Assembly: GCF_964204645.1 (NCBI RefSeq)
Contig: NC_134025.1
Span: 25,946,001 to 26,010,000 of the forward strand
DNA: 64,000 bases
Origin: Tubulanus polymorphus
Taxonomy: Eukaryota; Nemertea; Palaeonemertea; Tubulaniformes; Tubulanidae
Reading direction: 5' to 3'
Below, in pieces: positions 6,701 to 60,399 of the stretch. Numbering within the stretch: position 1 is the first letter of the stretch; every line of letters begins with the position of its first letter. Below the pieces are notes generated by a model. The model made no database searches and was not told the origin of the DNA. It saw only the letters and a list, made by a program, of their open reading frames with translations. Both the position numbers and the translations under genes were made by a program.

Positions 6701-9700
6701 AAGCAATGTTTTCGAAAATGTTGATAAAAGGTTCACCCATAATAATCAGTATATAATTATGTAGATTCATCTATCCAGGATATTTGTAAATTAAAATCAT
6801 AATAATATTTAATGCAGGCCATAGAATAATTGTTGTTGAACTTGTTTCACTTCTTCAGTTGAAGCCTGGAATTACGTGAATAGCACTGGGGTTGAAGAAG
6901 GCGTATCGGTTTTCAGAGCTACGAAAGATCGGTGGCTTAGTATACGTATGTCCGGTAATAAAACAATAAGTGGCCGTTTTCAAACTGGAAATCGCACTTA
7001 CTATTATAAACCGGATAATGGACGGCCACTGGGTAAGATACATTCATTTCATGTCCACTTTATTCGAGAACATTGAAAAATACAGAGCTTGGAGAATAAG
7101 AATGTTATATAAGATAACGTACTCGACAATGAGTGTCGTGTAACGTATCATTCAAAAACACACATACATAATTTTTCTCTGTTTCTTGTTTCTACTTGGA
7201 TTCTTCACGTAGGCTTAATCATATTTTAGATTATATACGATACATCTTTTCCAGCCCACCACATGTCGTTACCTCAAAATCTCGCCATTTACATAGCTGT
7301 ACCGGCAGTACTGTTGCTGTTGACACTATCCGCTGTGGTTTACGGCATTCGGCAGAGACAGAAATTTTCACATTTGGAACATCACCAAAGCATCGGAGAC
7401 GCGGAAAGTTATAATCTGTATAATTCAGTGAGACCACACGACGATAGGTATGATTCCCTATTAAAAATTCAGACCACATCTAGAAGTTGAATTACTTGAA
7501 ATAAATAATTCCCTTACTGTTTTAGCCCACCACCCACGCCGTCGAGGATTGTGGACAAATGGGAAATCCACCCACGTCATCTGTTTTTTGGTGATGTGCT
7601 GGGAACTGGAGCGTTTGGACAAGTTTATCAAGCGATGTTAAAACTGTATCCGGAAGTAGCTGAACGCAGTGATACCATACCATTATTTGCTCAGGAATGG
7701 GACCATGACACAATTGAAATGATCGTTGCCGTAAAACAGTTAAAAGGTACGCTTTTAACTAAACGTGGAAATTATTTGGTTGGATTATCTCATTCCTAAA
7801 TTCCCCGAATGAAAAATATATATTCCTGTCTGTATTCGTGGGGCAAACGGAGAGGCACTTTCACTGGCGAAGACTCCGCTCGAGTCGGATCTTTGAGGAC
7901 CATAAAATGTGTCCGACTTGTGTCGAGTGATATCCGAGCCAACGCTATGTATTTCTTAAATCGTGTCATAACGAATATTTCAAGAAATATCCGAGTTGGA
8001 CGGTTATTCGATTCGATTCGACTCGATTCGGGGTTTGTATCATAAACCATAATCCCCACAAAAAGTGTCGCAACTAAAAAATAGTTTACAACTGTGTATA
8101 ACTGTATAAGATTGGTATTGAATATATTTCAGAATATGCCGACAAGACGCAGAAACAAGAGTTTCTGAATGAAATCAAACTTATGAAAACTCTTGGTAGT
8201 CATTTGAATGTAGTAAGCATGGTTGGCTGTATAACAATTAACGAACCGTTGTGTTTGATCGTTGAACAACTTCCAAATGGAGACATGTTACATTATCTTC
8301 GGAAACACAGAGAATTTATACAACAGGTATAGCCTATGTGTAAATTTCATCGCAAAAATGCAGCTGAAAATTGGATATTTTTATTACATTTTCATTCATT
8401 TGATTTTAATTTTCAGGGCGCACACGAAGATTACTATGAGAATGCGTGTAAACTCACATATTTGGATCTGCTATCATTTGCCAGACAGATAGCTAGAGGA
8501 ATGGTAAGCTCGTAAGATGACTAACTCTTTTTTATCGATGCGATGATATCCATGAGCTCCAGGCAGTGCTGCCATCAGTCTGCACACTCAAGTACTAGAA
8601 AGAAAAACTTATTTACTTACCAATAATCGTAAATTGCCGAATATTTCATTTGAAAATCTTTTGAAACCAAAAGTAAATCTATGGAACGAAAAGGAAAATT
8701 AACAAAAATTAAGTTCAAAAAATATATTTGTAGTATGGAGTTTTTATATACTTTTATATACGAATTAACATTGTTTCAGGAATTCCTATCACAAAAGGGA
8801 TTCGTGCACCGAGATTTGGCGACCAGAAATATCTTGGTCGGAGAAGAGCGAACTGTGAAAATCGGGGATTTCGGTCTCACTCGTTATGTTTACGATGACA
8901 AGGTCTATGTGAACAGGAAAGGAGGCAAACTCCCTTTGAAATGGATGTCAATCGAAGCGATATTTGATCTCACATTTTCAACTGCGAGTGATGTGTAAGC
9001 ATTATATATCTATTTTGTTACAGTTAAAGGCCATAATTCTTATAATGGTGATGAATTAATGATTCTTATAAAAATAATAAGTTTTAGAAAAAATTATGGC
9101 TGTTCATATGCCTGACACACAATATGAGAAAGGTCTGTTGATTCTCAAAACTTACCAAAGATATTCTCCGAGGCATTTTCAGGGTATTCGTTCTTACTTG
9201 CACCACGTGAATGTATTTTTTCATAACTTCACGCAATTTCTAACATTTCCAGATGGGCGTTTGGTGTAGTATTGTTTGAGATAGTGACTTTAGGCGGTAC
9301 CCCATATCCGGCGATATCTAACCAGGATCTATTGAAGTTTCTCAAGCAAGGTTATCGCATGGAGAAACCTGATAACTGTGATGATGAATTGTAAGTGCAA
9401 TTATATTTCATATGCAAGCTTACGATCACCCAACCTATTGCAATTGTTGAATATGAAACCCATTTTCAACAACTTTTGTGGCCTAATTTTTTTTCCGAAT
9501 GGAAAGGTTTATTTTTCGGTTTTATTATTTTTCTGCTATTTCAAAAATAGAAACTACTTCTGACGATGGTACACGCGTGGTTTATTAAGTCGGGGATTTG
9601 TTGACAGATGGCGTTAGGATAGATGGGAAACCCGTTCAGTTGGATGATAATTCCTCCACTGGACCATATTACATTTTGCCGTAATATGAATTGAAATCTT

Positions 9701-12700
9701 CAAGGTTCTACATGATAAATTTTCTTTTTTTATAGTAAGCTATTTAAGAAATTTTTGACAAATAATTAGTTTTAGCGAAATTTAAAACAATGGATCTTAT
9801 TTGCCGAAGCATATGTAGATGATGGGCAATACAGGAACAGATTGGCAGAAACAAATGGCTCTGACTGTAACATAAATCTTAGTACCACAACTTAAGTGCT
9901 CTGCTAAGTAAACATTATCTTAATTATCGAACTGTTACGTTTAACTACATCCACTGATATGCCTTTTCTTTCCAAAGTAGCCTGGTGTTGCAGGTATATA
10001 AGGCAAATCTGAATACGAAAGCATTAATGTTAGCAGCTGTTATCGTGGTCTAAACACCTGATGGAAAATTTATCAGTTAATTGTATATACAACTTCACCA
10101 GAATGTATCGTTGTGAAACTATGTAGGAAAAGCTGTCTCGGGGATTGATATATAACTCAATTAAAAGGCTTGGTTAAGTCCTGTTAGTCATTTTGTCGAA
10201 TTGATTTTCATATCCCAAGATCTCACACCCGTACATGGTTATAGGAGCGACACACTCATCAAATGATTTAAACAAAATATTTTGGGCCGTGCCTAACAGT
10301 GCCGCCTAGTGGCCTTTAACCAAACCTATCAAATATCGCCGATATGGCGAGGTTTTATGTATTTTGTTCAAAATAAGTAGAAAATGTAATTAGAACATGA
10401 AAACCTCTGTTTATATATAATTCATAATTCCGCCAACGGATTTCTCGTGTGAATTCAAACGTTCGACATAAATTATATATTTCAACCGTGAAAATGAATT
10501 TACGATATTCTCAGTACAACTGAAATGTCTCATAAAGTAGATATATAATCGCTATTCGAAATAGCGCTATACAACGTCATCCCGCACGAAATAATCTAGA
10601 CGTCACTTTGATATCATTAAATGTATTTTGATGTCATTTTGATAGCGATCTCAAACGTCGCAAATTCATTCAATTCTGATATAGCACCATTTTGATGAAT
10701 GCGATCTCGTAGGTGGCCAGCGGTTGGTATATCATTGGATATGATTGTCTTTAAAATCAGATAATACACGGTGGTCCCTATTAACGACTTTCAGAACAAC
10801 CGTGGATTTCACCCAAAAGACATGTAAATACAAACATTATCATTCCAAATAATGAAGAATTATATTGAATTGTCGTGAATGGGTTGAAAAAAGCGACAAA
10901 TGTCTTATCATTTAGATCAGTAGTTTCGGCTATTGGTGGGTGGTGATCTGGCGTCTATCAAACGTGACACGGCAGATGGTCTTCGACAATCAAAACTTGA
11001 ATTCAAAAGTAGATTATTTCGTGCTAAAACGTGTTGTACATGCTATTAGGGCCACCATAATTTCTAACCAATCTCCACGAGATGGCTGGGTGTAGTGACG
11101 ATTAATCTAATTTTTCGAATGATTTCTTTTCTAATACAAATGAACGTCGAAAAATCTTCTATGATCACGATACCTTTCATTGTATACAAGACGTATCACG
11201 ATGGTAGATAATTCATGATACCGTAATCGCTAATGTTTGTATTTATGGATAAAATTTGATGGTTTGACAATGTTGAACGTGTAAATTGCTGGAAACCACC
11301 TCATGAGCTTATATCATCATTGGTATCTGTTAACGATTTCTGGTGCAGATGAAGGCATTGAAATCTTCCAGGTGATCAGATTGAAGAAACCACCTGTAAA
11401 CAGTTTATATGAAACAGGTTTACAAACTTTATCCTCTTGGCTTTTAGATATATGAACACACGTGGGAATAATAGCCGTATATTTGATTCTCGTAAAACAC
11501 GGGCTTTATTTCCATTGGCCAATGCGAATTAGTCATATCAAATACAAACGCATGGAAATCATCAAGCATTTTCTTACCTCGTAGATTTTGCGTCTAAGTT
11601 GAGTTTAATAACGTAAAAATTCATTCGGATAAAAGTCGATGTACTGATAATCTGACAAACACTCTTCTTTGAATTAACTATACAATATGTTAGAATTACC
11701 AAATGCCGTTGAAGCAGACTAATGTTTTGGAATATCTATGCTGTAGAGTTGGCTTCAATTGTCTGTATTGCTATGTCATAATAGCTATTAGCTAATTGGT
11801 AAGATATACCGGACTTGTCAAACGCCACTTAGTAAAGCATACTTAGTTTTACGAGTTTAAGCCAGGTGTGAATTTCCTATCTTCCAGTTGTTAAGTTCAA
11901 CCATATTGTGCGGCATGAAAAATAGAAATATTTGGCAGTTTCTCAATAATTGAGCGTTGTCTGAGAGAGAGGCGCAATACGCACGAGGATTCTCGACAGA
12001 CAAAACCCGTGTTAAAGGTTAATGTATACATACTGGTTGATTAGTCCAATTTCTCTTTTTTCATTTTTATTTTGTTTTGATTTTTAGGGGTCATTACGTC
12101 CATATTTCGCGTATCAGTCAACTTGTTGTTTTCATATTACATATCCCCTCCCGTTATGTGGATCATTCGGATTATACTCGTGTATTTTTTCAAGATTAAA
12201 TCTCGGTGTAAATATAGTAAAGGAATGCGCGGATATAAGCCAAGTAGCTGCTCATAATATACTGTCTAAAAATGAACTTCATCTGAACGAATTGTCATAA
12301 AATGTTAGTTTGGGTCAACGTGATCTTTGTCGAATTTGTGCCGCAAAGACACATATAACTACAGAATGTTGTTTTGCTTAAAGCTGCCATTTTCTTCTAA
12401 GTAGGCCTATCTAATCATCGTTCAAATATTTCAGGTATGGCATCATGTATGACTGTTGGGCTCATAACGCTGAAGATCGTCCGAACTTCACCGAGTTAAT
12501 CATTCGCTTAGATTCGATGTTAGAAAGGTACAGCACAAGCGACTACTTAGACATAACGTTAGACGAAGCTCGAGATTATTACAGATGTCAAAATAACAGC
12601 GATGATGAAGATGATGAGACTGATGGTGATGGCGAAGATCCCGACGACGAAGTTGCTCAACATCGAGATAATAATTCGCACATGTCGCGGTTGTCCGTTT

Positions 12701-13074
12701 GGTCCGGCTCGTCAACTCTGACGGGACGGTCGGTCGACAGTGATGATCATTGCTCGCCATCGAAGCGATTGTTAACGAAAGCGGAAAGCATTTCTCCCGG
12801 TAGTTCGGGACGCGAAAGTATGGAAGCTAAAGATGACGACGAAGACATGGATGTGGACGGATCGGAGAAACCGGGTATCGTTTATACGCAGGTCATAACG
12901 CGAGCGTCACGACCCAGCAGTAACACGCACGATTCGGGAAATGTCTCGTTTGAAATGGAAATGGATTTGAATTCGAATGGACCGGAAAGCACACAGTATT
13001 TGATCCCGAAAGCTGTTATCGATGAGGGTACCGGCGCGGCTAAATGCACAAATTGGGAAGATGCATTCGTGTAA
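731..13074 (+). CDS. Receptor tyrosine kinase, Torso-like (5' end missing)
   Basis: A single-pass receptor tyrosine kinase that would phosphorylate itself and substrates after binding an extracellular ligand. Exons: 731-790, 3089-3137, 3966-4123, 4304-4415, 4509-4616, 4712-4812, 4955-5017, 5090-5153, 5259-5306, 5398-5606, 5713-5769, 5963-6056, 6859-7032, 7255-7447, 7526-7746, 8133-8326, 8417-8503, 8780-8994, 9253-9390, 12435-13074. They join in frame to about 994 residues. The order is a short Cys-rich segment (CFKNC, CIESC), three fibronectin III-like regions (exons 3966-6056), a membrane helix (exon 7255, [16 protein letters not shown]), then a kinase with glycine loop GTGAFG, VAVK lysine, HRDLATRN and DFG. 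All catalytic residues are present. The roughly 200-residue tail is acidic and Ser-rich. The domain order and the activation-loop region resemble insect Torso, the PTTH/trunk receptor. Receptor kinase identity is near certain; the Torso assignment is moderate. Confidence 0.85.
6146..6194. repeat. (TCATA)n microsatellite
   Basis: About nine perfect TCATA pentamers plus a partial one, in the 800-bp intron between the exons ending at 6056 and starting at 6859 of the receptor kinase gene. Confidence 0.95.
9391..12434 (+). other. 3-kb intron inside the RTK kinase domain
   Basis: This is the longest intron but one of the gene. It separates the exon ending in the kinase C-lobe (residues DNCDDEL) from the exon starting YGIMYDCW. 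I see no exon, repeat array or transposon frame in it, only AT-rich sequence. Confidence 0.7.
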
Positions 13075-21062: not shown

Positions 21063-22405
21063 TCATCGACAACCACATCCTTCTACGACCATGTCCTGGT
21101 AGTTTTTCAAAACGACCTTTTGGTATTCGTCCAAATACAACATGGAAATAGGACTTAGTTCAGTTGGCACACAGCACGCTTTCGGCACAACGTGGGGATA
21201 CGCAGAATTAACTAAATTTTGCACAATAGCATGATTTGTAGAATTTAAATGATCGGATAACGGAAAGGGACAGTCCCCGTGACAATAATAGGCGTGATAG
21301 CCAGGTGGCGCTACGATCCAATCGTCCCATCCTACGTCACTAAAATCTACTGCTAATGGGTGTCTTTTGCACTGATCTTTCATTTTTTTTCTACGCCGAT
21401 TGTGCGATTTTCGTTTATGATTTCGGCGACTACGACCATTTCTAGTCCGTCGACGAGACCTACTCTTATTTCTTTTCGAGTCTTTCATCGCTCGACCATC
21501 GTCGCTATAAGTCACTAAAACTGGTCGTTCTTTATTCCACTTTTTATCGTCGGTCTGTAACGACCGGCGCAGACGAACGTGCGGATTGTTTTTGACCGGT
21601 TGACCATCCAACGTCGTGAAATGCACTTCGACTCCGTGGTTAACGCGCGGATTTTTCGTCCACCTATGAACGGCTTCGCTCACGTCGAACGATTCCCACG
21701 AGGAATTGCGGACATCAACCGTTCGCGTGTCTATAAGTTGTGTTATAGCTTCCTCGTTGTGTTTTGAAACCGGCGATATCACTTCGTAAACGTCGATTCT
21801 ATGTCTAAATCCGTTATTTTTCACGTTTTCGTTATGTAATGATGGGACATCATTCGGATGCATGTGTGAACGATATACACGTAATTCAGCAGCAGTCAGA
21901 GTCTCCGACTGATCTATATTCGATACGTCGAATTTGAACAACTTTCTATGAGCCTCCTGAGGTTCTTCTTTATCATCTGAAAGAACAAAATAATGATACG
22001 TGAAATGTACGGTAAAGGAATAGGAAATTAGATTCTAATGGGCTATTTCTATGTATTAGATAGAATATAGATTTTTGGAAAGTGTAGCAACTTACCGTCG
22101 TGAAAATGACTGCGGACAGTATTAGCCGAACCGACGAGCTGATTTTCTTGATCGACATGAAGCGTTCCCCATTCCTCTGTCGATTTCCTCTGTTGCAAGT
22201 ATAGCTCCCACATGTAGTCTGGAACCTCGATATTTTTACGGCCTTTCGGTCTGGTTTTTAATCCGAACATTGTAAGCAATCCTTTCTCCAGATTTTTCAA
22301 CACTTCTGGCGATAACTTTTCTTTCTTCGAATCGGACATCGTTGAACCGACTAGGATTAAAGCACAACTGAGTAGCACCAAATTTACTGTGATCACTGAG
22401 GTCAT
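21063..22405 (-). CDS. BMP2/4: BMP2/4 (Dpp-type) TGF-beta ligand precursor
   Basis: A secreted dimeric ligand of the BMP2/4/Dpp subfamily that signals through BMP type I/II receptors and Smad1/5, typically in dorsoventral patterning. Two coding exons, 22405-22096 and 21976-21063, give about 407 residues, the usual family length. The first ATG in the exon (22405) is followed by a hydrophobic signal peptide ([17 protein letters not shown]). The prodomain follows, then a strongly basic stretch with furin-type sites (RSRR, then [10 protein letters not shown]), matching the heparin-binding N terminus of mature BMP2/4. The mature domain begins around [20 protein letters not shown]. It has the seven-cysteine pattern, including ACCVP and the CGCR end, and an NST glycosylation site. 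An acceptor lies just before the start codon (minus strand ...TTTTTAG), so a non-coding first exon is likely. Confidence 0.97.
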
Positions 22406-22557
22406 GGTGTAGCCTAAAAATACATAAAAAATGGACAACATTAAGACACTGTTCACAACAAAATATTCCAAGTGTTCTCTATTCTAGATATTCTCGTTAC
22501 ACATTTGACGCCATATTGGAAAATTCGTTTCGACACGTCTGTCACCAAATCCTTACC
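22406..22557 (-). promoter_or_regulatory. BMP2/4: Probable 5' UTR intron of BMP2/4
   Basis: On the minus strand a T-rich acceptor ending TTTTTAG lies about 10 bases before the BMP2/4 ATG. A good donor, GGCG followed by GTAAGG, lies near 22556. Together they would define an intron of about 140 bases between a non-coding exon and the first coding exon. This is inferred from splice signals only. Confidence 0.4.
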
Positions 22558-25500
22558 GCCAAAATCGTTGGCTCGGCGAAAGTAGTCAGTAAGCGATTAC
22601 CAAAATGTATCATCAATTCGTCAAAGTTTTTACTGTCAATTTTAACAAAAGCTTGATTATGATTAAATCCGAACATTTGGACGCCAGAAAACGCCGCCTT
22701 CTAGTCGTACACTCCACTCTACTCCACTATATGCGATCAATGATTTTTTTCTAAATAGGAATATCAATCGTGAGTTCGATAATTCTTCCAACTGATCTAC
22801 AGAAGACATCGCAAACCAGCAACCAGTCACCGAGAATAAGTTCGTGAATAGTTGTCGGTGGTTTAGCCATGTCGATTAAAACTACAGAATACTCCGGATA
22901 CGAAATTAAGTTGCATCACTTGATTTTTTTTCGGTAAAATCCACACAAGCATTAGACACTCATAGCCGTTAGAATGGTGTATAATAAACATACGCGGAGC
23001 AACATATAGCCTATTTGCACATTTTTATCCGTATAAATAAAAGTTATAAGTATAAGACCTCATGGTCTTATTTGATGAAGTTTAGAGATAAGACGCTCTA
23101 ACGTAAACCGATCTTATGCTTGCTTTCTATCCCGTATCATTTGCTTGCAATAATAAAATCATACGCAAGACGTATGAATTCTGGCGAGAATGTGCTCGCT
23201 TCGCTATTCGGTATTTATGTTGCAATGGGCGGTTCCAACCCAACGTCACTTGCCGAGGTTTTATTACTTTTGTATAGGGCCATTATGGCGCGGAGGTGGG
23301 CCGAATATAGACGTTCTTATTATTTCTTATTTATGCGCGTTCGAATCGAGCATAGCATAACAACCTGATTTTGACGGGTATAATTTCAAGAAAAGCTGAT
23401 TAATTTCGATATTTCATGCCAAACATGGGTATTTTAGTTATTATTTCATGAAGCCAGCAGACGCTTTCTATGGGAAAAAACCCATTGCCGTTTGCGCACG
23501 CACTAGTTGAATTTCATAGAAGTTGACAATTTCGACAAAAAATTTAATTAGAATTTATGGCGGTTAATTCGCGAAATTAAACTATGCGTGATGCGGAAAT
23601 GGACTCAAAGTCTCAATTTCATGGACACGATAGAAGCGACTCGAAGGAAGAGTATACATACACGTCGTGACAGGAAATTCTAATGAAGTGCACTCAATAA
23701 AAACCACATAAAAGTTAATCGAAGATAAACTTCCATTATACTCAACGAAAATGCGTTAATTACCCGAAAGAGGTTTTACCTCCCGAATATCAAAATGACC
23801 ATCATATGGCACCTATGCGCATACGACTTGGTGAATGAATAATGGTATTTCTCAGCCATTTAAAACATCATTAAGATAACCAACAACCCATAAGCCTTGA
23901 TTGATCAGTGAATATTTTGGCAGGTCGACGAAATCATGAATCCGATCTTGAAAACGAGTTCATGCAATTCTTTCATAGTTCGAAACATTTGGCGTAAATA
24001 ATTGTAGTCAATTCTCAATAAGATTTCAATAAAAGGGTAATTATCTGATCTATCCATCTATCACAATCATAATCATACCAGACGACTCTACACAAAACGA
24101 TAGATTTAACGACAATTTTCAAGAATGCGTCAACCCTCATTATCAAATTGATTTATGACTGATCTTTATTTTAGTTGATTTGATTAAGTTATTATAAAAC
24201 AAATTTAGATAGAAACTATTTGAAAGAAATATAGAACTATATTGATTCAAAAGCCCTAATTAATTTCAAGTTTTTAATAACAAAAAGAAAAATAATTCAA
24301 AGTACTCACTGCGTCATTGAAACGCCCGTCTAGTTTAGATTGCATATTTTCCGAAAATGATCGAAAATTATGCGAAGCGGTAATATTGAGGAGTTCTTCG
24401 GATGGCGCATGCGCATAATGTGAGAAGAACCACCCCGAAAACATATGCACGAGCGAGAGAGAGAGAGAAAAAAACATTTTTTGGTTTGACAATGGTTTGC
24501 TTATTGTGAACATCAATCATAGGGGCTAAAAGCTTTTCCGAGCCCACCTACGGAGAGTTTTGACGCTGCAAATTACAGCTTTTAACTTTTAAAGTTAGTT
24601 AATGTTGTTTACGTCGTATTCAAAATTATGGCGGGAAACATCGACGAAACCTCTACCTATGAAAGAAAATATCATTTTGGATCTATTTTGGTTTTAGATT
24701 TGATTGTAGAGTGTAGAGGATGTCAATTATCTTCTTGACTATGATATAACATTAACATTTCTATTACATTTAAGACAACTAGATCATTAATTGAAATAGG
24801 TTTTTGTGAATTTCTGTCACGTTTATTTTCTTATAATCGCTGGAAATCACGCAAGAATGGAGCAGGTGCTGGAATGAAGTCAATGTGACCGCATTTATGC
24901 CTCTCAATGAAATAATCAGTCACACTCAAACACGAAGATAATCACACATAAAAACAAAGGATTCTCTTCAAACTACTGAATCTTTATGGAGCACGCCTGA
25001 GATTTCTTTGTGATCGGACATATTTTTTGATATAAAAAAATTTGTTTTAGCGCCATGAATTCGAACATTTCGGTCGTTCTTAAGTGAATTTGCAAGAGAA
25101 TGTTTGCGGTTTTTTCCTATTCATTAAACGCGATATTTTTCTTAATAATCGAAATGATGGTTGCCACATGGAGTTGGGGAGGAACCACCTGTAACCAGGT
25201 GGCCACCATCGCTTCAGTCATCTTCTATCAATCGTGAAATTCTCAGCATTTACTGAGAATATCGAATGACTATTGATAGTGAACACCTGGATATATGAAT
25301 CCCATTCATCTGGAAACCATCATAAATTATATGAATACTAGATAATATTGGCCTGATATCAGCGGATTAAAAATCTTAAGAATGTTGCCGAACGCAAATA
25401 GTGAAATCTTGGTTTAGAAAAGAAAATTCATTCCTGTATAACTTTCGATGTTTACCAAATCGTAAAATCGAGTTCAGGGAAATGGCATCTACCCTAGATA

Positions 25501-28500
25501 TCTAAACTAGACTTGCACCGAAATCCTCTGTAATCTCGCTTTAGTGTAAATAATGATTCCGTTGGTTATTTAGTGCTGTCGTTAGAAATGCGCCAGGCAT
25601 TTTGACAAGCACGTAACTGTGTGAAGAGAGAAATCCCGATTTAAATGTTGTCTCAGTCATTATACGGTGATCATAATCTGTTTACTGTTGTATTATCTTC
25701 CTTCAAGACGGTGTCAGTGTTTATGTCAATTTTGTCAAGAGGTTCTTGATGTCACTCACTGTCGATAATTTGAGTCACGGCCCTAATTCCAGGTCGAAAT
25801 AAACAAACCACAACTATTCCGACCACGTTTGTAATTGAATTGCGGGTTTCAATAACTACAAATATTACAAAATCTTGTCTATCGGATATGATGTTGTAAC
25901 GGACCAAAATCTTATGAATTGATGGCTGCTTGTAAGATTCCTGAATGAAGCAACGTGTGTATCAAACAGAAGGTAATCGACTATAAACGACGTGAACTGT
26001 TCTGATTCGCAGGAAATTGTTCCGATGGTATCAGTCGTGGAAACGAATGCTTTTCTAGCCGGGGAAGAGAGAATTCCAGGCGATCGCATTACTGACTAGT
26101 GGCGACAGAATGACAAGTAGTTAAAACGATAGCATCTATACACGAAATATGTACGCCACATCCCTAACATCTATATCACATCCGTTTCATTATTTTTACT
26201 CGAAACTCGAATGTTCATATTATTTCGATTGAAAGTGGAATAGGATTCTTTCAGAAATACGAATACTGAGATTTATGCACGTGAAAATAAAGAATATCTC
26301 AAGGAATTGTATTTTTGAATTCTGGAATCCACGAACACATTTTACTATAATGTACAACGGAGTTAGTACCCATTGATGCTTTTAAGTGTAAAAAATAAGT
26401 ACTGAAATACGTTCTGCTTATCTGTGGTAAGGATATGAGGCCTGTTATCAAGTGTTATGTACCATTCGTCGGTTAGTCTAATAGTTGGTGTAGTAACCTT
26501 TCATTACCTGTAGGAATTTCTGGTCGTATATTAAATTTAGATAGATCTAAGACAAAGACAACTTTACTATTTTCTCAAAAATTCCGAAATTAGATCACAT
26601 CGAAACAACCGTAATAATAGATAATAACAGACCATACATGCTTTAGAAACATCAACGAAATTTTTTGGGAGACTAAAGGCTAAACGAAACGGAAATTGTT
26701 GCAAGGATAAATTGTTAAAATCTCAGAATATAAGCGTCATCGATAAATACCCTAATAAAACAGTCAGTTTATTACAATTTTAAGGAGATAAGTATAATAG
26801 CGATAGTACCGGTGTGTGCAAGAAAGGTGTTTAGTTGCTCGCAGATGGAGGCAATCTTAACCAGGTGAATTTGCCAGACTGTACATCACGATCTAAACGT
26901 TTCGAAAATCTGTTTATAATTGAGTCCGTCATTATAAAACACGACGGTAAATGATAGACCAATGTTCAGTATCTTCGGCAGAGCTTTACGTTTAGAATAA
27001 CATTTTCTTTTATCGGGTGTATGTTACTAAATTAACCGTGTAAATTACGAAATAGTTTACGGATTCGGTTTAAAAAGAGATGGTATTCATTTTGAGTTCA
27101 TAGACCACACAAAATCACCAGAATTCATAAACCTGATAATTATGAGACCTGTAACAGAATACACACCGGACCAACTCAACACCGTTTTAGAACCAAAATA
27201 AGCCAAGATTATGGTACGCGCTTGTTGGTTACCATTTTCAAAAGATGGATTTTACTGCATGGTCAAAAACTGCGGAAACGGGACCTACGTATAAACTATA
27301 TCTTAAATCCCGACTCTGGACTTTACGCATCAATGGTCTTACTATTACGAATGCTTAGTTTTGTTTATTCGTTTTATAGGTGAATTTAATTTGTTATTTT
27401 TTCAAGAGTCCGCCTTGCACGTGTGGTTAATCTGTTTCGTGTCAAAACTCAAACGATTTTTACTCACTAAATGCTTATTCAATACTGCTGAACAAACTGT
27501 GTTTTGCTTGTGCTACGGTATGTCTGTGCTCAAAGCTTTTGTACGTTTTGTTGATTTTTGGTATGAAACAGGCGCCATGTCTTATTTTGCTATGTATGTA
27601 TATTAAACAGAGCAAAATCCAGATCTATCCATTGGCATTTGCGAAGGAAGTTACCCAAGACCCATATGTTTTCACTTAAATGATATCTATAAATCTTATG
27701 ATCGAACAATTTTCAAACGTCTTCAGGAGTTTTCAATCATCATAATTCAAATTTCGCATGACACCCATGCATTTCTATCTTGTATATAATGTATAATATC
27801 ATAATTAGGAGTAAGACGAGTAACTATTGAATTGTAATCAGCTAATCGCCAGGTGTCCTGCGAATTAACTAATCGTTGTGTCGTATGAAAGATGACACGT
27901 CAGTTAGTTTTTGACGACATACTTCGTAATTATCTGATTATTATCTGATCTTGATTATTATTTGCGAACCGTGAACGGTAATCAGAAAACTAGACATGTA
28001 CTCACCGACTAAGCTATAACATTGTTTGGCAGCACCACGTTTCAATTCTATCCTTCCACTGTACAATTTTCACTTAAACGAATATTTTCTAAAGTTTTAA
28101 AACAATTTTCGGTATGTTGAATATCAATCCTAAATGTTTTGCACAAACGTCATTTGTGCACGCAAACTTCCAATAGTGTCAATAGTAACCAATAAAGTCG
28201 TATTTCATTGGATAACCAATCAAAGGCTATAATTTCTAATCAATCGTTTCTTTCTGACATCTATTCCTTGTGTTTTTCTTCTGTATATCGGCGAATAATC
28301 CATTGTGCGATAAACTAGTTAGTTAACGAATCCATTGAAATCCACTGATTCGCCCATGATGTTTTTTGCATTCCGCATACGGTCAATCGTATAACCTTTG
28401 AACTTGTGAATTTGTCAATCCCGGGTAATTCCGAACCGGCGTCAGCACGATTATGGGTTCATTGCGCCATTCCGACGCCACAAATAATTCCGACAGTTTT

Positions 28501-29610
28501 CGCTTGTTAACTTTTCAGAAGGGATCGCTATATTCGATTCGCTCCGTGATTGGTTGAGTTGAAGAAGACTGTACTATTGAGTTGAAGTCTACCTATGTAC
28601 CACACACCTCACACATGCGCAGACGAACTCCCTAATGAAGGGAAATCCATGAACATAAGCGCTAAAAGTGGCACGGTCATGCCGAGCAAGTGCTAATTTA
28701 CTCAAATAAACCCACGCGCAAACAGTTCATTTATCTCACAGTCCACTGCGTTTCATTGTTTGTCAATTTCAAACTAATTAAAAGATCTAACATCAACGCT
28801 GATAAATCACCTGACACCAACAAATTACAAACTGAGAAATCTAAAACAATTTCGAAAACAAAAAGACGTGAATGAAAATAGATGAGTTTGTTTGCTTTAC
28901 TGATTTATTGATAATTTTGATGATATCAATGGTCGAAATTGTTCTTAATTGAAAACATGTTTTTATAATATATATGATATATATATATATATATATATAT
29001 GCTATACATGCTTTCAATAAAGAAACAATCTATTTTTTTTTAGATTAATGAGAGGATATTGTGAATGTGAAGTATGATCTTATTTTGTGAAGTTTGATCT
29101 TATTTTTCTGTCGGAGCAATTTGACCGGAAATAAATCTGTGCGTATAGTATAGTTGATAATGACTAATGATATAAATTTAGATTAGATCTTTATTTGATT
29201 CATTTATCGTCTAATTATATGGGAAACTGCGCCTTGAATTCACGAGAAATGAGCGTAATTTGTTGTTGAGGGACAAAATTAATGGTTATTGGATTTCTTT
29301 TTCGTGCAGAGTCGAAGAATTGCCTTCGAGCAATAGGACAAAACGGTTTTGTCCTTGGTAGGTCTAAACCTGCCAAGTTGCTACATGAAAATCTCGGGGT
29401 CAAATTCGCTACACACCTGCGAATGTCTTTACTCGTCGGACGCGCCCGCTGAGTAAGAAACATCCCAAACCTTTTACGAGAACTCTAATTTAGAGACCAC
29501 ATGGACATTGCCTGGAAGCGTTGTACCAGTTCAACTATGAATTCGTCCATTTATAATAATATGAAGAGAACAATCGTCTGAATTCTGAGAAACTTGGCAT
29601 GATTTTTACA
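22558..29610. other. BMP2/4 upstream region and spacer to Univin
   Basis: About 7 kb of AT-rich DNA between the BMP2/4 5' end and the 3' end of the Univin/Vg1-type gene. I find no supported coding exon; the longest frames are 80-85 codons and lack domains. It must hold the BMP2/4 promoter and is the natural place for shared enhancers. The only repeat I note is the TA tract near 28.98 kb. Confidence 0.5.
28975..29000. repeat. (TA)n microsatellite
   Basis: A run of alternating T and A about 26 bases long, with an interrupted TA-rich lead-in from about 28967. It lies in the spacer between the two TGF-beta genes. Confidence 0.9.
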
Positions 29611-29762
29611 TTGATTTTATTTGTCTAAAACTAAATTTGAAGTACCGGTATATGCAACACATTTTAACACATATATACGTATGGGGCGTAATTGAGAAAC
29701 GGAAAAAATTATAGCAGAATAATGAAAATATATGGAAGATTGCAGTTTTTTATGAATCCGTT
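29611..29762 (-). other. Univin/Vg1-type gene 3' UTR with poly(A) signal
   Basis: A minus-strand AATAAA (plus-strand TTTATT at 29616-29621) lies about 140 bases past the stop codon and gives a short 3' UTR. Confidence 0.5.
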
Positions 29763-30837
29763 TTACCGACATCCACAGCTTGTAACTACCATATCGTCGT
29801 ACTTGCGAAGAACGACATTATCATAACCATCTAAGAACAACATCGATATAGGCGCCATATTGGTCGGAATACAGCACGTTTCTGGCGCACGATCATCATC
29901 TAAAGAATGGATCAAAGTTTGCAATACGGCGTGGTTGGTACCGTTGAGGTATTCGGTCAAGGGGTACGGGCATTCTCCTTGGCACTGGTTAGCGTAGTAT
30001 CTTTGAGGTGCTACAACCCAGTTACCCCAGCCAATTGTATTGAAATCTACTTTCATTTGTCTCACGTGACATATGCTGGGGTAGTTCAGACGACTTCGAT
30101 CAGTAACTGATCTCCTGACGCGGTTATGATGCTGATAATGACCGCTTGAGCAATGTTTCTTGTCGACCGACGTCACTACGAGATGTGAATCATTCCATAT
30201 ACGATTGACTCCGATATATTCTAGACTGAACGATAAAGACCCGCTCTTGATGTCTTTGAAGTGCTCCGATATATTGAATTCAAAAGCTTTGTCCAACTTA
30301 TTCGGTTGCCATCGCAGTTTTCTTTTTGATATGGTCGTTAGATAGAGTGGATAACTATCATCATCTAGCTGACCCTTTTCAATTCGGATTTTGGCATCTC
30401 TAAATTCCTCTCCTTTTGGCAATTGTATTGTCCTAAAATGCAACATCGTCATATTCGTGGATGATAGTTTGGTGCGAACTGAAAGAGACAGATGTATATA
30501 GTAATTGGACATATCATTAGAGATGTCTAAAAATTTGAATCTACAGAAATTGATGTTTTGGTTTACCTTGGACTTTGGTAGCTCTGACGACATTTCCTGG
30601 TACGTCATCTGAGAACACGCATCCATTACTGTGATGAGGGTGGTCAGTGACCCGAATGTGTAATTCCTTCATAAAATTCGGCGTCACGCCCGTGTGATGT
30701 TTCGGAATCGAAGGAGGTTTGCTGAGTCCAAGTTTCTTCAGGATAAAACGTTCATGGTTCCACTGGTGTTTTGATGCCAGAACGACTACTAGACAGTTTG
30801 TGAAACATAGAAGAGTTATATGTCTCAAACTCGTCAT
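29763..30837 (-). CDS. Vg1/Univin/GDF1-3-type TGF-beta ligand precursor
   Basis: A secreted TGF-beta ligand of the Vg1/Univin group. Family members act, often with Nodal, through activin-type receptors and Smad2/3 in early embryonic axis formation. Two coding exons, 30837-30567 and 30478-29763, give about 328 residues, shorter than usual because the prodomain is compact. The ATG at 30837 starts a signal peptide (RHITLLCFTNCLVVVLA). A furin site RVRR precedes the mature domain. Its CPYPLTEYLNGTNHA stretch, IGWGNWVVAP and ISMLF are close to the family's vertebrate Vg1 pattern and differ from BMP2/4. All seven cysteines are present, including ETCCIP and the CGCR end. The single intron after codon 90 (phase 1) is in the same phase as the BMP2/4 coding intron. 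The alternative readings, Nodal or ADMP, fit the mature domain less well. Confidence 0.88.
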
Positions 30838-32264: not shown

Positions 32265-35200
32265 TCACTTGTTTACTGAACTAAGAGGTGGTAAAGGCGT
32301 AGGGAACGGTTTTGAACTTCCAACTTTCTGTTTGTCAACGATAGTTGTAGGGATTGTGTCGTCTTGCGTAGTGTCAGCCGGGTCTAAAGGCGGTGCATCC
32401 GTATCCCAAATCCTTATAGTTCCATCTTCACTGCAACTTACTATATACCTATCTGTCACCTAAAATGAAAATATAATTCATTATCGATGACGTTTACGAA
32501 TGCTTTGATAATGCTCATTGCCTCAGCTGGATTCTCAAAATATTTTCACATAAGAAGATCGTTTTCAGTTTACATGTGCTGAATAACCCATTGAACCTTT
32601 TACTCTCAAGGGTGTTTCCTCCCCCCACACACACACACAGATCCCCATTTAATCTGTCAATCACCTGGAAAAACAGGAGAATTCAGTCAAATTGGAGACA
32701 CAAACACGATTGGCCTCATTCCTCATGTCTCGTGCTGACCTGACGAACAATACACGCTCAACATAAAATAACACACAACACTGAACTTTCAAATGATTAT
32801 CTGCAAGTTCTACCCAGTCCAGATGCATGTTTGATCAATATTCTTCTAAGCTGAGCGTTCAAATAATTTCTAGCATACAGGCAACTGTATGAATCTTAAA
32901 CATTTTAGTGGAAAAAAAAATTTCAGAGTTAATCCACGGCTGATCTGCGTCTACACAGGCGCTAGAAAACTCTCCGAGTGTAACTAGTTTAAACTATTAT
33001 AGCGGAGACTCTGCGAGGATTATCAGTTCTAATCCAGCTGTTGCGTTGGTAAAACCTAGCCGGATCTTATACTCAGGTGCTGAGCCACAAAACAAACTCT
33101 GTGTTGACTTAGGAAAACATAGCAGCTTTGATGTAGATAGGAACATGTGTCTGTTAGTTTAAACTAAAGGTATAGACGCTATGAGAGATCAATTTTCTGA
33201 ATGAAGTAGCACTACCTCACGCCACTACCACATATTTACTCATCACTTCAAATACAAATAAACTTCTCTCTCTCTCTCGTACAACATCTTGCTCTAAACT
33301 CTAATCAAAAAGTGGTCAAGAAAATAATGACATCAAGGATGTTTTATTCTAAATGTTCTTCAACCTGATTGAAAAAACGATGACTTAAATATGAACAGAT
33401 GAAAACCTTTTTTAAGCCATTTTGAAAAAATTGACACAAGTCTATGTTTATTGTATTATGCACATCAGTGTCTGCAACAAATGGGAAATGTTCATTACCA
33501 CTAGTGGTTTGATTCATTTCGACAAGTAAATATCTTTCAGTTTTTTCATATTATTGTTATTCTATCTAATGGGACTCAAAAAGAATTCCTGTCAAAACAC
33601 AAGCCTTCACATAATACATTATAATGCTCGGAATGTAAGCTAGCACTGTGCCAGTAAGCTGGCATAGGTATAGGCAATTCTCACCGTCAAAGGCTTCAAT
33701 AAATAAATTCATATACCCGTACCTCACAGCCCACACTATGCCTCATATAAATCAGATGTTTTAGCGCTTTTACTCAGAGATAAATTTCAGCTGAACAACT
33801 GAATAGTACCGAATATTCGAGCAAGGATGTTTTTCTTGATAATGGCTAATAGTCCTAAGCCAAAACGTTGCTCAAAATATATTCCGGTGCTCTTTTACTC
33901 AAAGACTTTACATATTTGGCTGAATAATTGTGGGTTTCTCTTCGATCTTTTTCTTACCTGTACATCTTTAACAGCTCCCTTGTGACCCTGTAGATATCGA
34001 ACACATGTCAAAGTGTTCAGATCCCATTCTTTGAGTGATGAATCTCTGAAAATCACAATTTTCAAACTAATGATCATCATGCGAAAGTGATAACGGCGTA
34101 CAAATTCGAAATACTTACGCTGAACCAGTTATAAAACGATTCTTGCTAAAAGACAATGAAGTAATAGCAGTTTTATGACATTCAATGGCTGCCTCTATCT
34201 CGCCGGACAACTTGTTCCAGAAATAAACCTGGCCCTGATTATTAGATGATATTATTAAATCTCCAATAGCCTGCAGAGTAGAAATAGCGAAAGTGTATCA
34301 GAAGATTGATATCAAGAAATAAAACTTTAGATGATTATTTGTATCTTTAGATGATTATTTGTAAACATTTTATTTACAACACCAGATTGAAGATGGCAGC
34401 ACTGCCATACTCAAACCTTTGTATAAACTTACTATCATCGCTAGTACTGGTTCCGGTGTTCCTGTGAACAATTTCAAACACTCTCCCGAAAACATATCTG
34501 TCAACCTCAGCGTTCTATATGAGAAAATATATTATTGAACGTCAGTAAAAAAGTTAAAAAATGATACCAAAGCAATCAAATATGATAACGTATAAATAAA
34601 TACCGATCAGAGGAACCGGTAAGGACACTACACCCATCAATCAGTTCCATACATGTGATAGCATCTTTGTGTCCGGACAGAACATTTATACATTCATATG
34701 ACTGCAAGCACCAAACGCGAACAGTTTTATCATGTGATCCAGATACTCTAGAAAACACATGAAAGAAAGTTGTTTGTATCAAACCCGATAAAAATCTACA
34801 TGTACCGGTATACGTTGTACTGTACTGTGGTACTACTTACAGATGATTAGAATTAAATCGAAGGCAAGATATAGCACCGCGATGACCGTGTAAAATCATC
34901 CGACGATTAAATTTTACTAAATCCCAAACCTAGAAGAACGATATCAGTAACTAAAAACATGCGCTCACTGTTTTAAAGATTGACATGCCACTTTGAGCGA
35001 AGCTTATCCGAGCAAAGCCAATCGTGACTGTATAACTTACCATTATTTGCATGTCCCACGAACCAGTGAACAAAACTTTTCCCTTGAATTCTAAACACCG
35101 AACTCCGCCCTGTGAAAATATTAACAAATCATGAATTACGAATAAATTTCCGCAAGCACTTAAAAGAATAGCCCTGCCAGTGATTGTTTGTGTACCATGT

Positions 35201-38200
35201 GTCCATATAGTTTGTGAATACTGCGTCCACTGCTGATGTCCCAAATACGAACGCTTCGATCCATACTCCCGCTGATTAAACGCTTTCTATCACAACGAAT
35301 ACAAAGAACTACATCCATGTGACCCTTAAATGAAAGAGAAAAGTAACCACTGTTAATATTCGTAATTTATGAAATTAAAACGAATTTGAATACAGCAATT
35401 TTTACTTGTAGTCGTCTAACTCGGTGGATGGGTTTAACTTCACCGGCGTACTGTATTTGAGGGGTTTTAGACTCCAATGGACCTTTCTTCCATACCAGAA
35501 AATGACCAGGTGCTGACTTTCCCTATAAATATTGATAATAAATACAATTAACACCACTTCTACAATTACCTAGGAATTCTTTTCCGATAGGTCGGAGCGG
35601 AGCTTACCAGTAAATCTTTAGCTTGACGCAGTTCGGGTCTGATATCCAAAGCGGTCTCCCCCTCTTCGTGCTTACGTCTTCTCAGTAATGGCTTATCTTC
35701 TCTGATTTAAACAAAAACAGAATGTCAATATCTACTGAAATAACGAAATTTACGATTAAGCATATACATGGAATATTACTTACCTTGATAGAGGACTTTC
35801 ATGACTTTCCGTCTCGTTCTTCATTTTGTCAAGTTTTCCTCTTACCGACATGCTACGCGACGATGCATTACCGTACGAGGTAGCCGTACCCGATGATCTG
35901 TACCTTCTTCTGTATCTGTACTGTCTTCTGGTGCTTCGTGTTGATTCCATTCCGGTATCTGCAACAATATGTACAAATAGGCAAATATTTTGAAGGTTTT
36001 TAGTGAAAATTAGAACTGCGTGATTCAACGTTTCATCCATACCTGTTCTCACTAATGAATATTCGTCCATGAACGTGCTTAAATCCTCATCGTCCTCATC
36101 TTCTTCATCCTCGCGTATCTCCATCGTGCTATGACGGTTTTGTTTTAATACCGTCGGTAGGTTTCGCGATGCTCTACCTTTACTCGCGCTCAGACTCCCT
36201 AGAAAACATTTAAATCTTACACATTTCGACGAATACTGAATTGAAATATGATCTAAAAACCCATCCAGAAAGTGAAAGAATTCAATGAATATGACGAATT
36301 GTGCCAAATATCTTACCTCCTGGTGTTGAAGCCTTTTTGCTCACACTGTCACCGCCTCCCAAGGACCTTCTATTGAATTGCATCTTACCATCAGGTGTTG
36401 TACCATCTACGGTGAGTATGTTTGGCTGATTATACGAGGTTTTTCTATCATCCGCTAGTTTATGTAATTCCGTGTACGCTAATCTCCAGTCAATACTATG
36501 GTCGGTATTTCGGCCGTATTTTTCTACCAGTTCATTCATATCTGGTATACCTTCTTCTTCCCCTACAATTGTATCAAAATATATATCCTTTTCAAAAAAG
36601 GCTATACGCAAAAAGGCAAACGCAACACAATTAAATGGACATTAATTAATCTTACCCAATTCTTCACATTTTACCATCCACAGTTCGTCTCTACTGCATA
36701 GATATTTCCAGCGTTTGCACACCTGAAGAAAATTCAGTCATCATGATTCATAAAGAACTAAATTCACTTACGTACAGTTGATGTACAAAAGATATACAAT
36801 TACCTGTGCCGCATTGTTCAAGTCACTGGAGTCTAGGTAGGTAAATATTTCCATCAATGTATGATCTTGTAGACGATTTATATCAGTTCTATCTTGTAAT
36901 CTAGAATATAAAGATATTGTAAATTTAAACAATGAAATTCAATGGTCCCCATCGACCCTTTCCCAAATGAGCAAGAGTCTAAAGTAATATCAGTACCTTT
37001 GACGAATACATTGAGCCATAAAGCTTATCAGTTCAGTCGAACAAATTTTCACAATTTCAACGAGAATGGACAACCGTTCATGACTTTGCCATCCAGACAT
37101 CCACTAAAATTATGAAAAAAAAAAAAACATGATGACAGGCCTGGTGAAAACGAACACATATAGAATAGAAAAACAGACCTCTGTTATCTGGTCCATTTGT
37201 CTTTGAAAATGATTGCGTAATTTGCTTTTTTGAGCCTTCTCAAATTTTTTCCCATCACGAGGGGCATTTCCAAACCATTTCGAGTGCTTGTAGCACTTTT
37301 GTATCGGAACCATAATATCCTGAAGAGCTGGTGGTTTCCGTACTGGTCCCGAACGTATTTCACGCTGCATGCCACCTGAAACAGAATATAAACCTTTCAA
37401 AAAGAATGTCACTGTGAAAATGTAAGACAGAGTTAGCGCAATAATACTTACCTAATTTATTCATCTTTTGATCCGCAAAGAAATCTGCTTTCGTTCCCGA
37501 TGAGCCTTGAGTCGGTCTGTGATAATGCGATGAATCAGCGAATGTTAAGGACGGTTTAAGTTTGGGGAGGGATGGACGAGGAGCAAACAGCAATATCTCT
37601 TCACTTCCAACATCGTTGTCCAATAAACCGGCAAGATTCAAATTCTCCATCTTGTCAACAACTTCATCCGTAGAATGAGTATTCTTTTCTTGTATAGATT
37701 GCCAATTAATTTTAGGATCATTAGAATTGCCAGCACTTTTTTCCATCAAATCGTTGCTGACCTCAGAATTTTCCTCATTTACACTGGTTTTTTCCGCAAG
37801 ATCTTTACAATGTCGGATTGCAGACACAATAATCCTCCCCGCAAACTCTCGGGCCAGCGACTTTATTTGATTGAGCTCATTATCACCGCCGGCATCGGTA
37901 GCATTTTCTTCTTCATCTTGTTCGGCGGGAATTGTGATTATTTCCTGTAAAAGGTTGTAATCTTCTTCGGCAATTTCAGGCAAGAAATCGACCTGGTTTT
38001 CAGCATTCTCCGAGCAATCGGCGCTTGATTCACTCAAGCTGCGAGCACCGGGCGGGTGAGATTTCTTCTTTTTCTTTTGTTTCTTCTTTAAAAACTTCAG
38101 CGAATCGCACGGATAACGTTTTTTCAGCGAGGTTATGAAATCTCGATGATTAATAGGTTCGATAGTCGTGCGAAGGGCTTCCAATTGCGAAACCGTACAT

Positions 38201-38436
38201 TTATCGGTCAATCCGCACAGTAAAATGCGGCGCTGCCACGGCTGCCAACTTTCAAACCATTCTTCGATCTTCTTTAATATATGTTTGTTGACCAAATCCG
38301 ATCGAGAAGATAACTGGATATCCTCCGTACTGATCTGGATCCCAGGCTGTAAAATGGACAGCGGCTGTAATAACCTTCTCGAGCCGTACGCTGGTCCCGG
38401 TCGTGCTGGCATGCTACTATTTACAGTAGAACACAT
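32265..38436 (-). CDS. F-box and WD40 repeat protein (FBXW10-like?)
   Basis: A likely substrate receptor of an SCF ubiquitin ligase: the F-box binds Skp1 and the WD40 propeller binds the target. Eighteen exons, minus strand: 38436-37452, 37375-37179, 37103-36997, 36900-36804, 36722-36656, 36562-36317, 36198-36043, 35958-35784, 35701-35608, 35522-35406, 35324-35196, 35109-35041, 34929-34841, 34747-34604, 34514-34433, 34270-34119, 34045-33958, 32459-32265. They join in frame to about 1062 residues. The F-box is near residues 430-485 (HTLMEIFTYLDSSDLNNAAQ, VCKRWKYL). Seven WD repeats fill roughly 735-1040 (GSMDRSVRIWD, GSHDKTVRVW, SCSEDGTIRIWD). The N-terminal 400 residues hold a Trp-rich module, a Lys run and an acidic segment. 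The donor after 37179 (GTCTGT) is weak but fits the phase. I cannot name the orthologue securely. Confidence 0.88.
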
Positions 38437-43235: not shown

Positions 43236-44160
43236 GCTGGTTAGTAGACTCTCGGCTGGTAGTAGACTCTCGGCTGGTGGCAGACTCTCGGCTGGTAGTA
43301 GACTCTCGACTGGTGGTAGACTCTCGGCTGGTAGTAGACTCTCGGCTGGTAGTAGACTCTCGACTGGTAGTAGACTCCTGGCTGGTAGTAGACTCTGGAC
43401 TGGTGGTAGACTCTCGGCTGGTGGCAGACTCTCGACTGGTGGTAGACTCTCGGCTGGTAGTAGACTCTCGGCTGGTAGTAGACTCTCGGCTGGTGGTAGA
43501 CTCTCGGCTGGTGGTAGACTCTCGGCTGGTGGTAGACTCTCGACTGGTGGTAGACTCTCGGCTGGTAGTAGACTCTCGGCTGGTGGTAGACTCTCGGCTG
43601 GTGGTAGACTCTCGGCTGGTGGTAGACTCTGGACTGGTGGTAGACTCTGGGCTGGTGGTAGACTGTCGGCTGGTGGTAGACTGTCGGCTGGTAGTAGACT
43701 CTCGGCTGGTAGTAGACTCTCGGCTGGTAGTAGACTCTCGGCTGGTAGTAGACTCTCGACTGGTGGTGGTAGACTCTCGGCTGGTAGTAGACTCTCGGCT
43801 GGTAGTAGACTCTCGACTGGTGGTAGACTCTCGGCTGGTGGCAGACTCTCGGCTGGTAGTAGACTCTCGGCTGGTGGCAGACTCTCGGCTGGTAGTAGAC
43901 TCTCGACTGGTGGTAGACTCTCGGCTGGTAGTAGACTCTCGGCTGGTAGAAGACTCTCGACTGGTAGTAGACTCTCGGCTGGTTAGTAGACTCTCGACTG
44001 GTGGTAGACTCTCGGCTGGTGGTAGACTCTCGGCTGGTGGTAGACTCTGGGCTGGTGGTAGACTCTGGGCTGGTGGTAGACTGTCGGCTGGTAGTAGACT
44101 CTCGGCTGGTAGTAGACTCTCGGCTGGTAGTAGACTCTCGGCTGGTAGTAGACTCTCAAC
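43236..44160. repeat. 18-bp minisatellite, about 50 copies
   Basis: A tandem array with consensus CTCGGCTGGTAGTAGACT and a few variable positions (GG/GA, TAGT/TGGT/TGGC). Most units are exactly 18 bases. Exceptions are a unit with three extra bases near 43760 and one with a single extra T near 43983. Because 18 is a multiple of three and the unit lacks stops in most frames, long frames open on both strands. On minus these read as (STTSRE)n. No ATG starts them, and the single-base slip breaks every frame, so I treat the array as non-coding. Confidence 0.95.
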
Positions 44161-59051: not shown

Positions 59052-59403
59052 CTTGTTACTTTATCACCAAGGTTTTAATCTCCTAAAAACATCTACTGAA
59101 TGCATCAAATATGTAGAAGCCCCTACTTTTGAATTACAGTTATTTAGAAAATTTAGAAAATACGATTCATCCGATAATAATTCGAGGCTATTCTTTTTAT
59201 CAAACGTATATTGTTTATAGACACAACACAGTGCGCTTAGCAACATGTAAACAACATGGCTGACACCATTTGACAGGTCTAGACGCACCAGTCAGACATT
59301 TCTTTTTAGAATGATTGTTTATTGCACGATTTCTTTAAGTTAAAATCTCAACGTAAACGTTTTTATTTTATTTTCTACACTTGAGATTCACATATTGTAA
59401 ATT
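59052..59403. promoter_or_regulatory. Short bidirectional promoter region
   Basis: 352 bases separate the divergent start codons of SPATA17 (minus) and the unnamed gene (plus), so both promoters must lie here or overlap the first exons. A possible RFX X-box half-site AGCAAC is at 59239-59244. A full X-box is not evident. Confidence 0.55.
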
Positions 59404-60399
59404 ATGACAACCTTAAATTACCCCGGAGTTTCGAGAAAGAAAGAGGTTCTTCAAAAATATGCGTAAGTTTTTGTTGAGTTTTGAAAAAATCTACTGAGTA
59501 CAATGCATTGTTCCTGCACTGTGTTTCAGCTGTTTGCATTTTCAGCCCAAACACATTCCGTGTGATCAGCGGAGATGCAGAACAAATGAATGGTATTTTT
59601 ACATCAAGGTTTCCTGCACAAGCCGCTCGTCTTCCTAACCTGCCATATGGACCAGTCGAAAAAAAGCCAGTCCCTTCTGATGATCGTTGGAACAATCCGC
59701 ACCCATTTCACTGCAAATTTTTACGGCAAAATGTTCGTCTAATAAATGAGCCAATATGCACAGTATACACGCATCCAGTTAGACAAGAACAGAATCTATG
59801 GTGGCCTTCAAGGACATCAAACGAACCATTAAAAGCTCCTCCAGTAACATCCGATTCCACTTATCGAAAAGATTATCATCAATCAAAGAATCTGATCTCT
59901 AATGGGAATGGACGACATGCAGCAAATACTCAGAAACACCCAGCATTAGGAATAGGTAAGTAGAAGATCTTTTATCATTCTATATTCTTGATTAAACTAA
60001 TTTTCAAGCACAATATGTTTTTAATTTCAGTTCCAGTCAATAGTTTAATGAAGCCAAACGGTGATGTTCGAGTTCATAAAGAGAAGATTTCTTATGAGCA
60101 TAAGTATAACTGTAGACTGGATCCAAACTACCCAATTAGAGCTAAGGTACGTAGGCTCATTAATCTATTCCGTATCTTGGTATTTGTATCGTATTATCAT
60201 AGCCAATTTAACCCTTTTATTATTGCAGAGACATGGTGCATTTGTGTGGAACCAACTGAAACCAGAGTCAGCGAAAAAATACCTCGAAAGTATCAACCAT
60301 CCGACTAACTTAAAAAACACTATAGAATCTGCCCCGGTTGATTCAAAACACTCAGAACCTCTGGCACCGATATCACCTAAACAAGAAACAAGTGAATAA
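59404..60399 (+). CDS. Unidentified 251-residue protein, candidate ciliary/sperm protein
   Basis: I do not recognise this protein with confidence. Four exons, 59404-59462, 59546-59955, 60031-60146 and 60229-60399, splice in frame with standard GT/AG signals to 251 residues. The ATG at 59404 opens MTTLNYPGVSRKKEVLQKYA. The body is basic and rich in Pro, Asn and Trp, without membrane segment, coiled coil or known domain. Distinct stretches are RLPNLPYGPVEKKPVPSDD, RWNNPHPFHCKF, EQNLWWPSRTSNEP, DSTYRKDYHQ and RHGAFVWNQLKPESAKKYLE. Repeated short Pro/Trp/Tyr motifs of this style are common in microtubule-associated axoneme proteins. The head-to-head position with SPATA17 and the nearness of IFT43 support a ciliary role, but that is inference. 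A resemblance to the vertebrate C2orf73 family is possible and unverified. Confidence 0.85.

Follow-up and report, generated by a model that had tools for sequence, protein, structure and literature searches.

A predicted Vg1/Univin/GDF1/3-type ligand gene in tandem with BMP2/4 in a lophotrochozoan genome

We describe a pair of neighbouring TGF-beta ligand genes, one predicted to be of the Vg1/Univin/GDF1/3 type and the other a BMP2/4 gene. Both genes are intact, they are adjacent, the genome that carries them is lophotrochozoan and the first of the two bears Vg1-type sequence characters. We consider it highly probable that the pair corresponds to the Gdf1/3-Bmp2/4 tandem that deuterostomes are known to carry, present in this case in a lophotrochozoan, that it would descend from a duplication preceding the split of protostomes and deuterostomes, and that the Vg1-like product would act as a partner ligand of Nodal.

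Results

Two complete ligand genes lie head to tail

The window, by which we mean the whole stretch of 64,000 nucleotides that was analysed, comprises bases 25,946,001-26,010,000 of contig C1 (32.06 Mb). On its minus strand lie two intact and complete TGF-beta ligand precursors in tandem, head to tail, at 21063-22405 and 29763-30837 (Table 1), which places the pair at ~25.97 Mb of the contig. The former gene encodes a protein of 407 aa in two coding exons and the latter a protein of 328 aa with an RVRR cleavage site and one terminal stop, and 7,357 bp separate the start codon of the BMP2/4 gene from the stop codon of the Vg1-like gene. Each gene has one phase-1 intron, at an equivalent position in the prodomain. 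The coordinates, strand, exon count and intron phase given in a preliminary description of this DNA were all borne out by our gene models, and its statement that no gene lies between the two ligands agrees with our searches: a TGF-beta profile run against all six frames of the window matched the two genes only, with no third ligand or TGF-beta remnant, and the longest open reading frames of the spacer (69-99 aa) had no significant Pfam match.

Table 1. Positions of the two ligand genes and their parts in the window
Feature	Position	Strand	Details
Vg1/Univin/GDF1/3-like coding exon 1	30567..30837	-	start codon 30837; signal peptide and beginning of prodomain, which includes C73 and the VPGNVVR motif
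Vg1-like intron	30479..30566	-	88 bp, GT-AG, phase 1
Vg1-like coding exon 2, including stop	29763..30478	-	remaining prodomain with C200, RVRR furin-type site, mature cystine-knot domain
Vg1-like cystine-knot domain	29766..30071	-	102 aa, seven canonical cysteines; Pfam TGF_beta 112.9 bits
Spacer	22406..29762	.	7,357 bp; no recognisable gene or TGF-beta remnant; all but two small pieces single copy
BMP2/4 coding exon 1	22096..22405	-	start codon 22405
BMP2/4 intron	21977..22095	-	119 bp, GT-AG, phase 1; prodomain site identical to that of the Vg1-like gene
BMP2/4 coding exon 2, including stop	21063..21976	-	prodomain and mature domain; Pfam TGF_beta 128.7 bits, TGFb_propeptide 102.2 bits

The two small pieces of the spacer that are not single copy (23439-23557 and 26625-26784) are non-coding and lie 3.07 kb apart, and their counterparts, which match at 85% and 77%, adjoin each other on the minus strand of C2 (C2:30833480-30833746); a genome search found these two places only. 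Either the spacer has gained an insertion or the copy on C2 has been shortened. A transposon between the two pieces was considered and rejected, as by eye the flanks carry no terminal inverted repeat.

Elsewhere in the window, we note a receptor tyrosine kinase gene in pieces at about 7500-13071 (+), whose more N-terminal pieces (from about 3860) look fibronectin type III-like by eye, with no Pfam confirmation; an F-box/WD40-type gene at 32268-38436 (-), with WD40 repeats and an N-terminal part that is FBXW10/FBXO16-like by eye; and a minisatellite at 43236-44157 (18-bp unit, about 51 copies), which is open in several frames and therefore gives false long open reading frames. Further, the interval 56941-63768 holds a SPATA17-like IQ-motif gene (minus) and a gene for a biotin-dependent carboxylase, probably pyruvate carboxylase (minus). 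Vertebrate SPATA17 adjoins TGFB2, to which we attach no meaning for the window.

Sequence identity of the two ligands

To judge from both its mature domain and its prodomain, the gene at 21063-22405 is a canonical member of the BMP2/4 (Dpp) subfamily. Its cystine-knot domain is 86% identical to that of human BMP2, and the mature-domain tree places it in a clade with BMP2, BMP4 and Dpp at 97/94.

The cystine-knot domain of the gene at 29763-30837 has its best pairwise match in Xenopus Vg1 (62%) and is 51% identical to that of the neighbouring BMP2/4; there was no Vg1, GDF1 or GDF3 chain among its PDB matches, and its match to the Pfam TGFb_propeptide profile fell below the cut-off. The vertebrate tree references (marked r_) were provisional sequences rather than database records, and the Vg1/Univin group was represented by its vertebrate members. 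The preliminary description, which had named the genes Vg1/Univin-type and BMP2/4, proposed a phylogeny as the check, and on these provisional references the identities were upheld: the full-length tree groups 29763-30837 with Vg1, GDF1 and GDF3 at 97/96 (100/98 when Nodal was left out, 99/99 when Nodal and GDF1 were), and the mature-domain tree gives a modest 83/85 for a grouping with Xenopus Vg1 only. In approximately unbiased (AU) tests on the full length, pairing with the neighbouring BMP2/4 was rejected (p=0.0008; 0.002 and 0.0004 with the reduced sets), as was BMP2/4 membership (p=0.007), so that we discarded a second BMP2/4 as an identity for this gene; on the mature domain alone neither pairing (p=0.05) nor membership (p=0.16) was cleanly rejected. 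A tree of the prodomain only agrees with the full-length tree (93/95), its AU test being not significant (p=0.066). Among 29 diagnostic columns of the mature domain, 11 are Vg1-type, 5 are BMP2/4-type and 13 are neither, and the ratio of 11:5 is by itself not significant (p=0.21). We note that 29763-30837 forms a long branch in the tree. The gene also contains YANQC, PYPLTE, LNGTNHAVLQTLIHS, APISMLF and DNVVLR, which we take to be Vg1-type wording.

The mature prodomain of the Vg1-like protein has exactly two cysteines, C73, which lies in C-x5-VPGNVVR directly before the intron, and C200, which lies in LVVTSVDKKHC directly before the RVRR site. In the provisional references, these are the positions of the first and last prodomain cysteines of Vg1, GDF1 and GDF3; the prodomains of BMP2, BMP4, BMP7 and the BMP2/4 of the window contain none. 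The prodomain cysteines together with the C...VxGN.VR motif thus argue, separately from the trees, for membership of the Vg1/Univin/GDF1/3 group. Overall, an assignment of 29763-30837 as a Vg1/Univin/GDF1/3-type ligand appears well supported, the mature domain alone not being decisive.

The genome and its ligand complement

With an Antp homeodomain as query, a single Hox cluster was located (C6:5318228-5634747); it is compact and intact, and its ten genes span 316 kb, all on the same strand. From homeodomains and flanking peptides, we take these genes to be Post2, Lox2, Lox4, Antp, Lox5, Scr, Dfd, Hox3, pb and lab; a Post1-like gene lies outside the cluster, on C7. Lox5 contains KLNGPN, and IKELN follows the homeodomain in Lox2 and Lox4, which are lophotrochozoan and protostome marks. 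Going by Lox5, Lox2, Lox4 and Post2, the genome is that of a lophotrochozoan.

The genome comprises 267.8 Mb in 77 contigs, and its 16 exon-level TGF_beta matches correspond to about 13 ligand genes, which include ADMP, Nodal (C4, 8.445 Mb), BMP3, BMP5-8, activin, GDF8/11, a GDF15/Maverick-like gene and two Lefty-like genes, with no TGFB1/2/3 gene among the matches. This set fits a lophotrochozoan origin. Viral and prokaryote collections yielded no relatives, as expected, and a search of the genome for an EGF-CFC co-receptor, run without a positive control, gave no match. The assembly likewise gave no mitochondrial cox1 match by which to check the genetic code, and no match to the annelid linker family in a search that also lacked a positive control. 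We also observed that the BMP3/GDF10, ADMP and Nodal genes lie inside 2.4 Mb of C4 (6.04-8.45 Mb), and that the two Lefty-like genes form a tandem of their own (C2:9859530-9861702, about 1.5 kb apart) and both, like Lefty, are without the CC pair of the cystine knot. Lefty was reported in lophotrochozoans only in 2020 (PMC7535936).

By simple arithmetic, the chance of finding this named pair of ligands so close together on one strand is ~3e-5, and that for any pair among 13 ligands is near 0.5%; we therefore do not ascribe the adjacency to chance, and a tandem origin is its natural cause.

Discussion

Origin of the pair

Shi et al. 2024 report Gdf1/3 from deuterostomes only, many of which have it linked to Bmp2/4, and trace it to a tandem duplication of Bmp2/4 in the ancestral deuterostome (PMC10794066). 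Our literature search, whose coverage lacked Kenny et al. 2014 and Lapraz et al. 2006, found no report of a spiralian Vg1/Univin, and the available portions of a Capitella study (PMC7522025) name no such gene. The preliminary description had called the linkage one discussed as ancestral in bilaterians, which is at odds with that account. We propose that an ancestral BMP2/4-type gene would have duplicated in tandem before the protostome-deuterostome split, that one duplicate would have become Vg1/Univin/GDF1/3, and that the present lineage would have kept both copies adjacent, head to tail and 7.4 kb apart. The tandem duplication put forward in the preliminary description holds to the extent that an old duplication fits the common intron position and orientation; the age of the duplication, like strict orthology and all function, is something that we infer. 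It is likely, in our estimation, that a tandem of Gdf1/3 and Bmp2/4 existed in the protostome-deuterostome ancestor and survives intact here; a ligand set of Nodal, Vg1 and Lefty would therefore be ancestral to bilaterians and would have disappeared from the protostomes examined to date or been missed in them.

The same layout could also have arisen if BMP2/4 had duplicated within this lophotrochozoan lineage and the new copy had diverged fast, becoming Vg1-like through convergence. The two genes are indeed adjacent, on the same strand and alike in intron phase and position, and the mature-domain AU test stands at p=0.05. In addition, the gene is unnamed in the available portions of the published ligand accounts of Owenia (PMC13275895), Lingula (PMC13121700) and scallops (PMC10763453). 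We nevertheless regard convergence after a recent duplication as improbable, given the full-length AU values (p=0.0008, 0.002 and 0.0004) and the two prodomain cysteines at Vg1/GDF1/GDF3 positions, of which BMP2/4 has neither; the diagnostic columns (11 Vg1-type against 5) point the same way, though not significantly by themselves. An ancient duplication is thus more likely than a local one. TGF-beta genes do translocate, as tetrapod GDF1/3 and amphioxus Gdf1/3-like did (PMC10794066, PMC6134012), and a Vg1-type gene might have moved secondarily beside BMP2/4 in this lineage; such a history would require an independent move to the very neighbour seen in deuterostomes, for which the chance is about 3e-5 per named pair, and we hold it to be very improbable. 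The published Gdf1/3-Bmp2/4 linkages that we found are all from deuterostomes (PMC10794066), which would be accommodated if the genome itself were that of a deuterostome, such as a small hemichordate or tunicate, and the pair simply the linkage already known. This is contradicted by Lox5, Lox2, Lox4 and Post2, by the protostome peptide that follows the homeodomains of Lox2 and Lox4 and by the lack of TGFB1/2/3 among the ligand matches, and we give it almost no credence.

A tentative proposal, compatible with descent from an ancient tandem, is that regulatory elements common to both genes within the 7.4-kb spacer maintain the linkage. The distance is very short and the spacer is geneless and almost single copy, and BMP pathway genes retain their linkage groups more than average genes do (PMC13121700). 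Against this, the Gdf1/3-Bmp2/4 linkage is gone in mice, chickens and frogs (PMC10794066), which shows that some lineages can do without it.

Proposed function and implications

With its signal peptide, prodomain, furin-type site and cystine knot, the product of the Vg1-like gene is most likely a secreted ligand precursor. In zebrafish, Vg1 is kept in monomeric form and gains activity by forming a heterodimer with Nodal (PMC5745085), and in the sea urchin high Nodal signalling requires Univin/Vg1 (PMC4600745). By analogy with Vg1, GDF1 and Univin, the ligand described here would probably dimerise with Nodal and raise Smad2/3 signalling where both are present, and BMP2/4 would signal separately via Smad1/5. 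With Nodal and two Lefty-like genes present in the genome, a putative role as Nodal partner is the most economical reading.

Should the orthology be borne out, the tandem pair would be older than the split of protostomes and deuterostomes and the duplication would move back to the bilaterian ancestor. A lophotrochozoan Gdf1/3 would contradict the current published statement that the gene is confined to deuterostomes, and an orthologue in this group would make the cooperation of Vg1 and Nodal testable in a spiralian embryo. Further, so short and intact a locus would suit a hunt for conserved regulatory DNA.

Comparison with known systems

In the deuterostome tandem (sea urchin univin-bmp2/4, amphioxus Gdf1/3-Bmp2/4, fish and elephant shark), the same ligand subfamilies are adjacent (PMC10794066, PMC6134012); the present pair differs in sitting in a lophotrochozoan, where Gdf1/3 was said to be absent. 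In non-tetrapod vertebrates, GDF1/3 lies amid BMP2, HAO1, TMX4, PLCB1, FERMT1, LRRN4 and CRLS1, with FERMT1 and HAO1 flanking GDF1/3-BMP2 (PMC6134012). Here too, a kindlin (FERMT) gene (22.6 Mb) and an FMN_dh/HAO gene (20.07 Mb) share contig C1 with the pair; further FMN_dh genes lie on C2, and an uninformative search of the genome for a PLCB (PLC-beta) neighbour gave no match. At 3-6 Mb from the pair, this co-location gives support at the chromosome scale only.

The Vg1-like gene resembles Vg1, GDF1, GDF3 and Univin in its cystine knot, which is closest to that of Vg1, in the C-VPGN-VR motif, in the LxVT....C before the cleavage site and in its position in the full-length tree, and it differs from the vertebrate members in its long branch, in having no middle prodomain cysteines and in a mature terminus that reads TSCGCR rather than DECGCR. 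With BMP2/4 (Dpp), it has intron position and phase in common, whereas its cystine knot is only 51% identical and full-length analysis rejects it as a BMP2/4. Overall, because of the taxonomic position of the host, we regard the pair as a notable range extension for two genes already known as neighbours, and not as a new kind of system.
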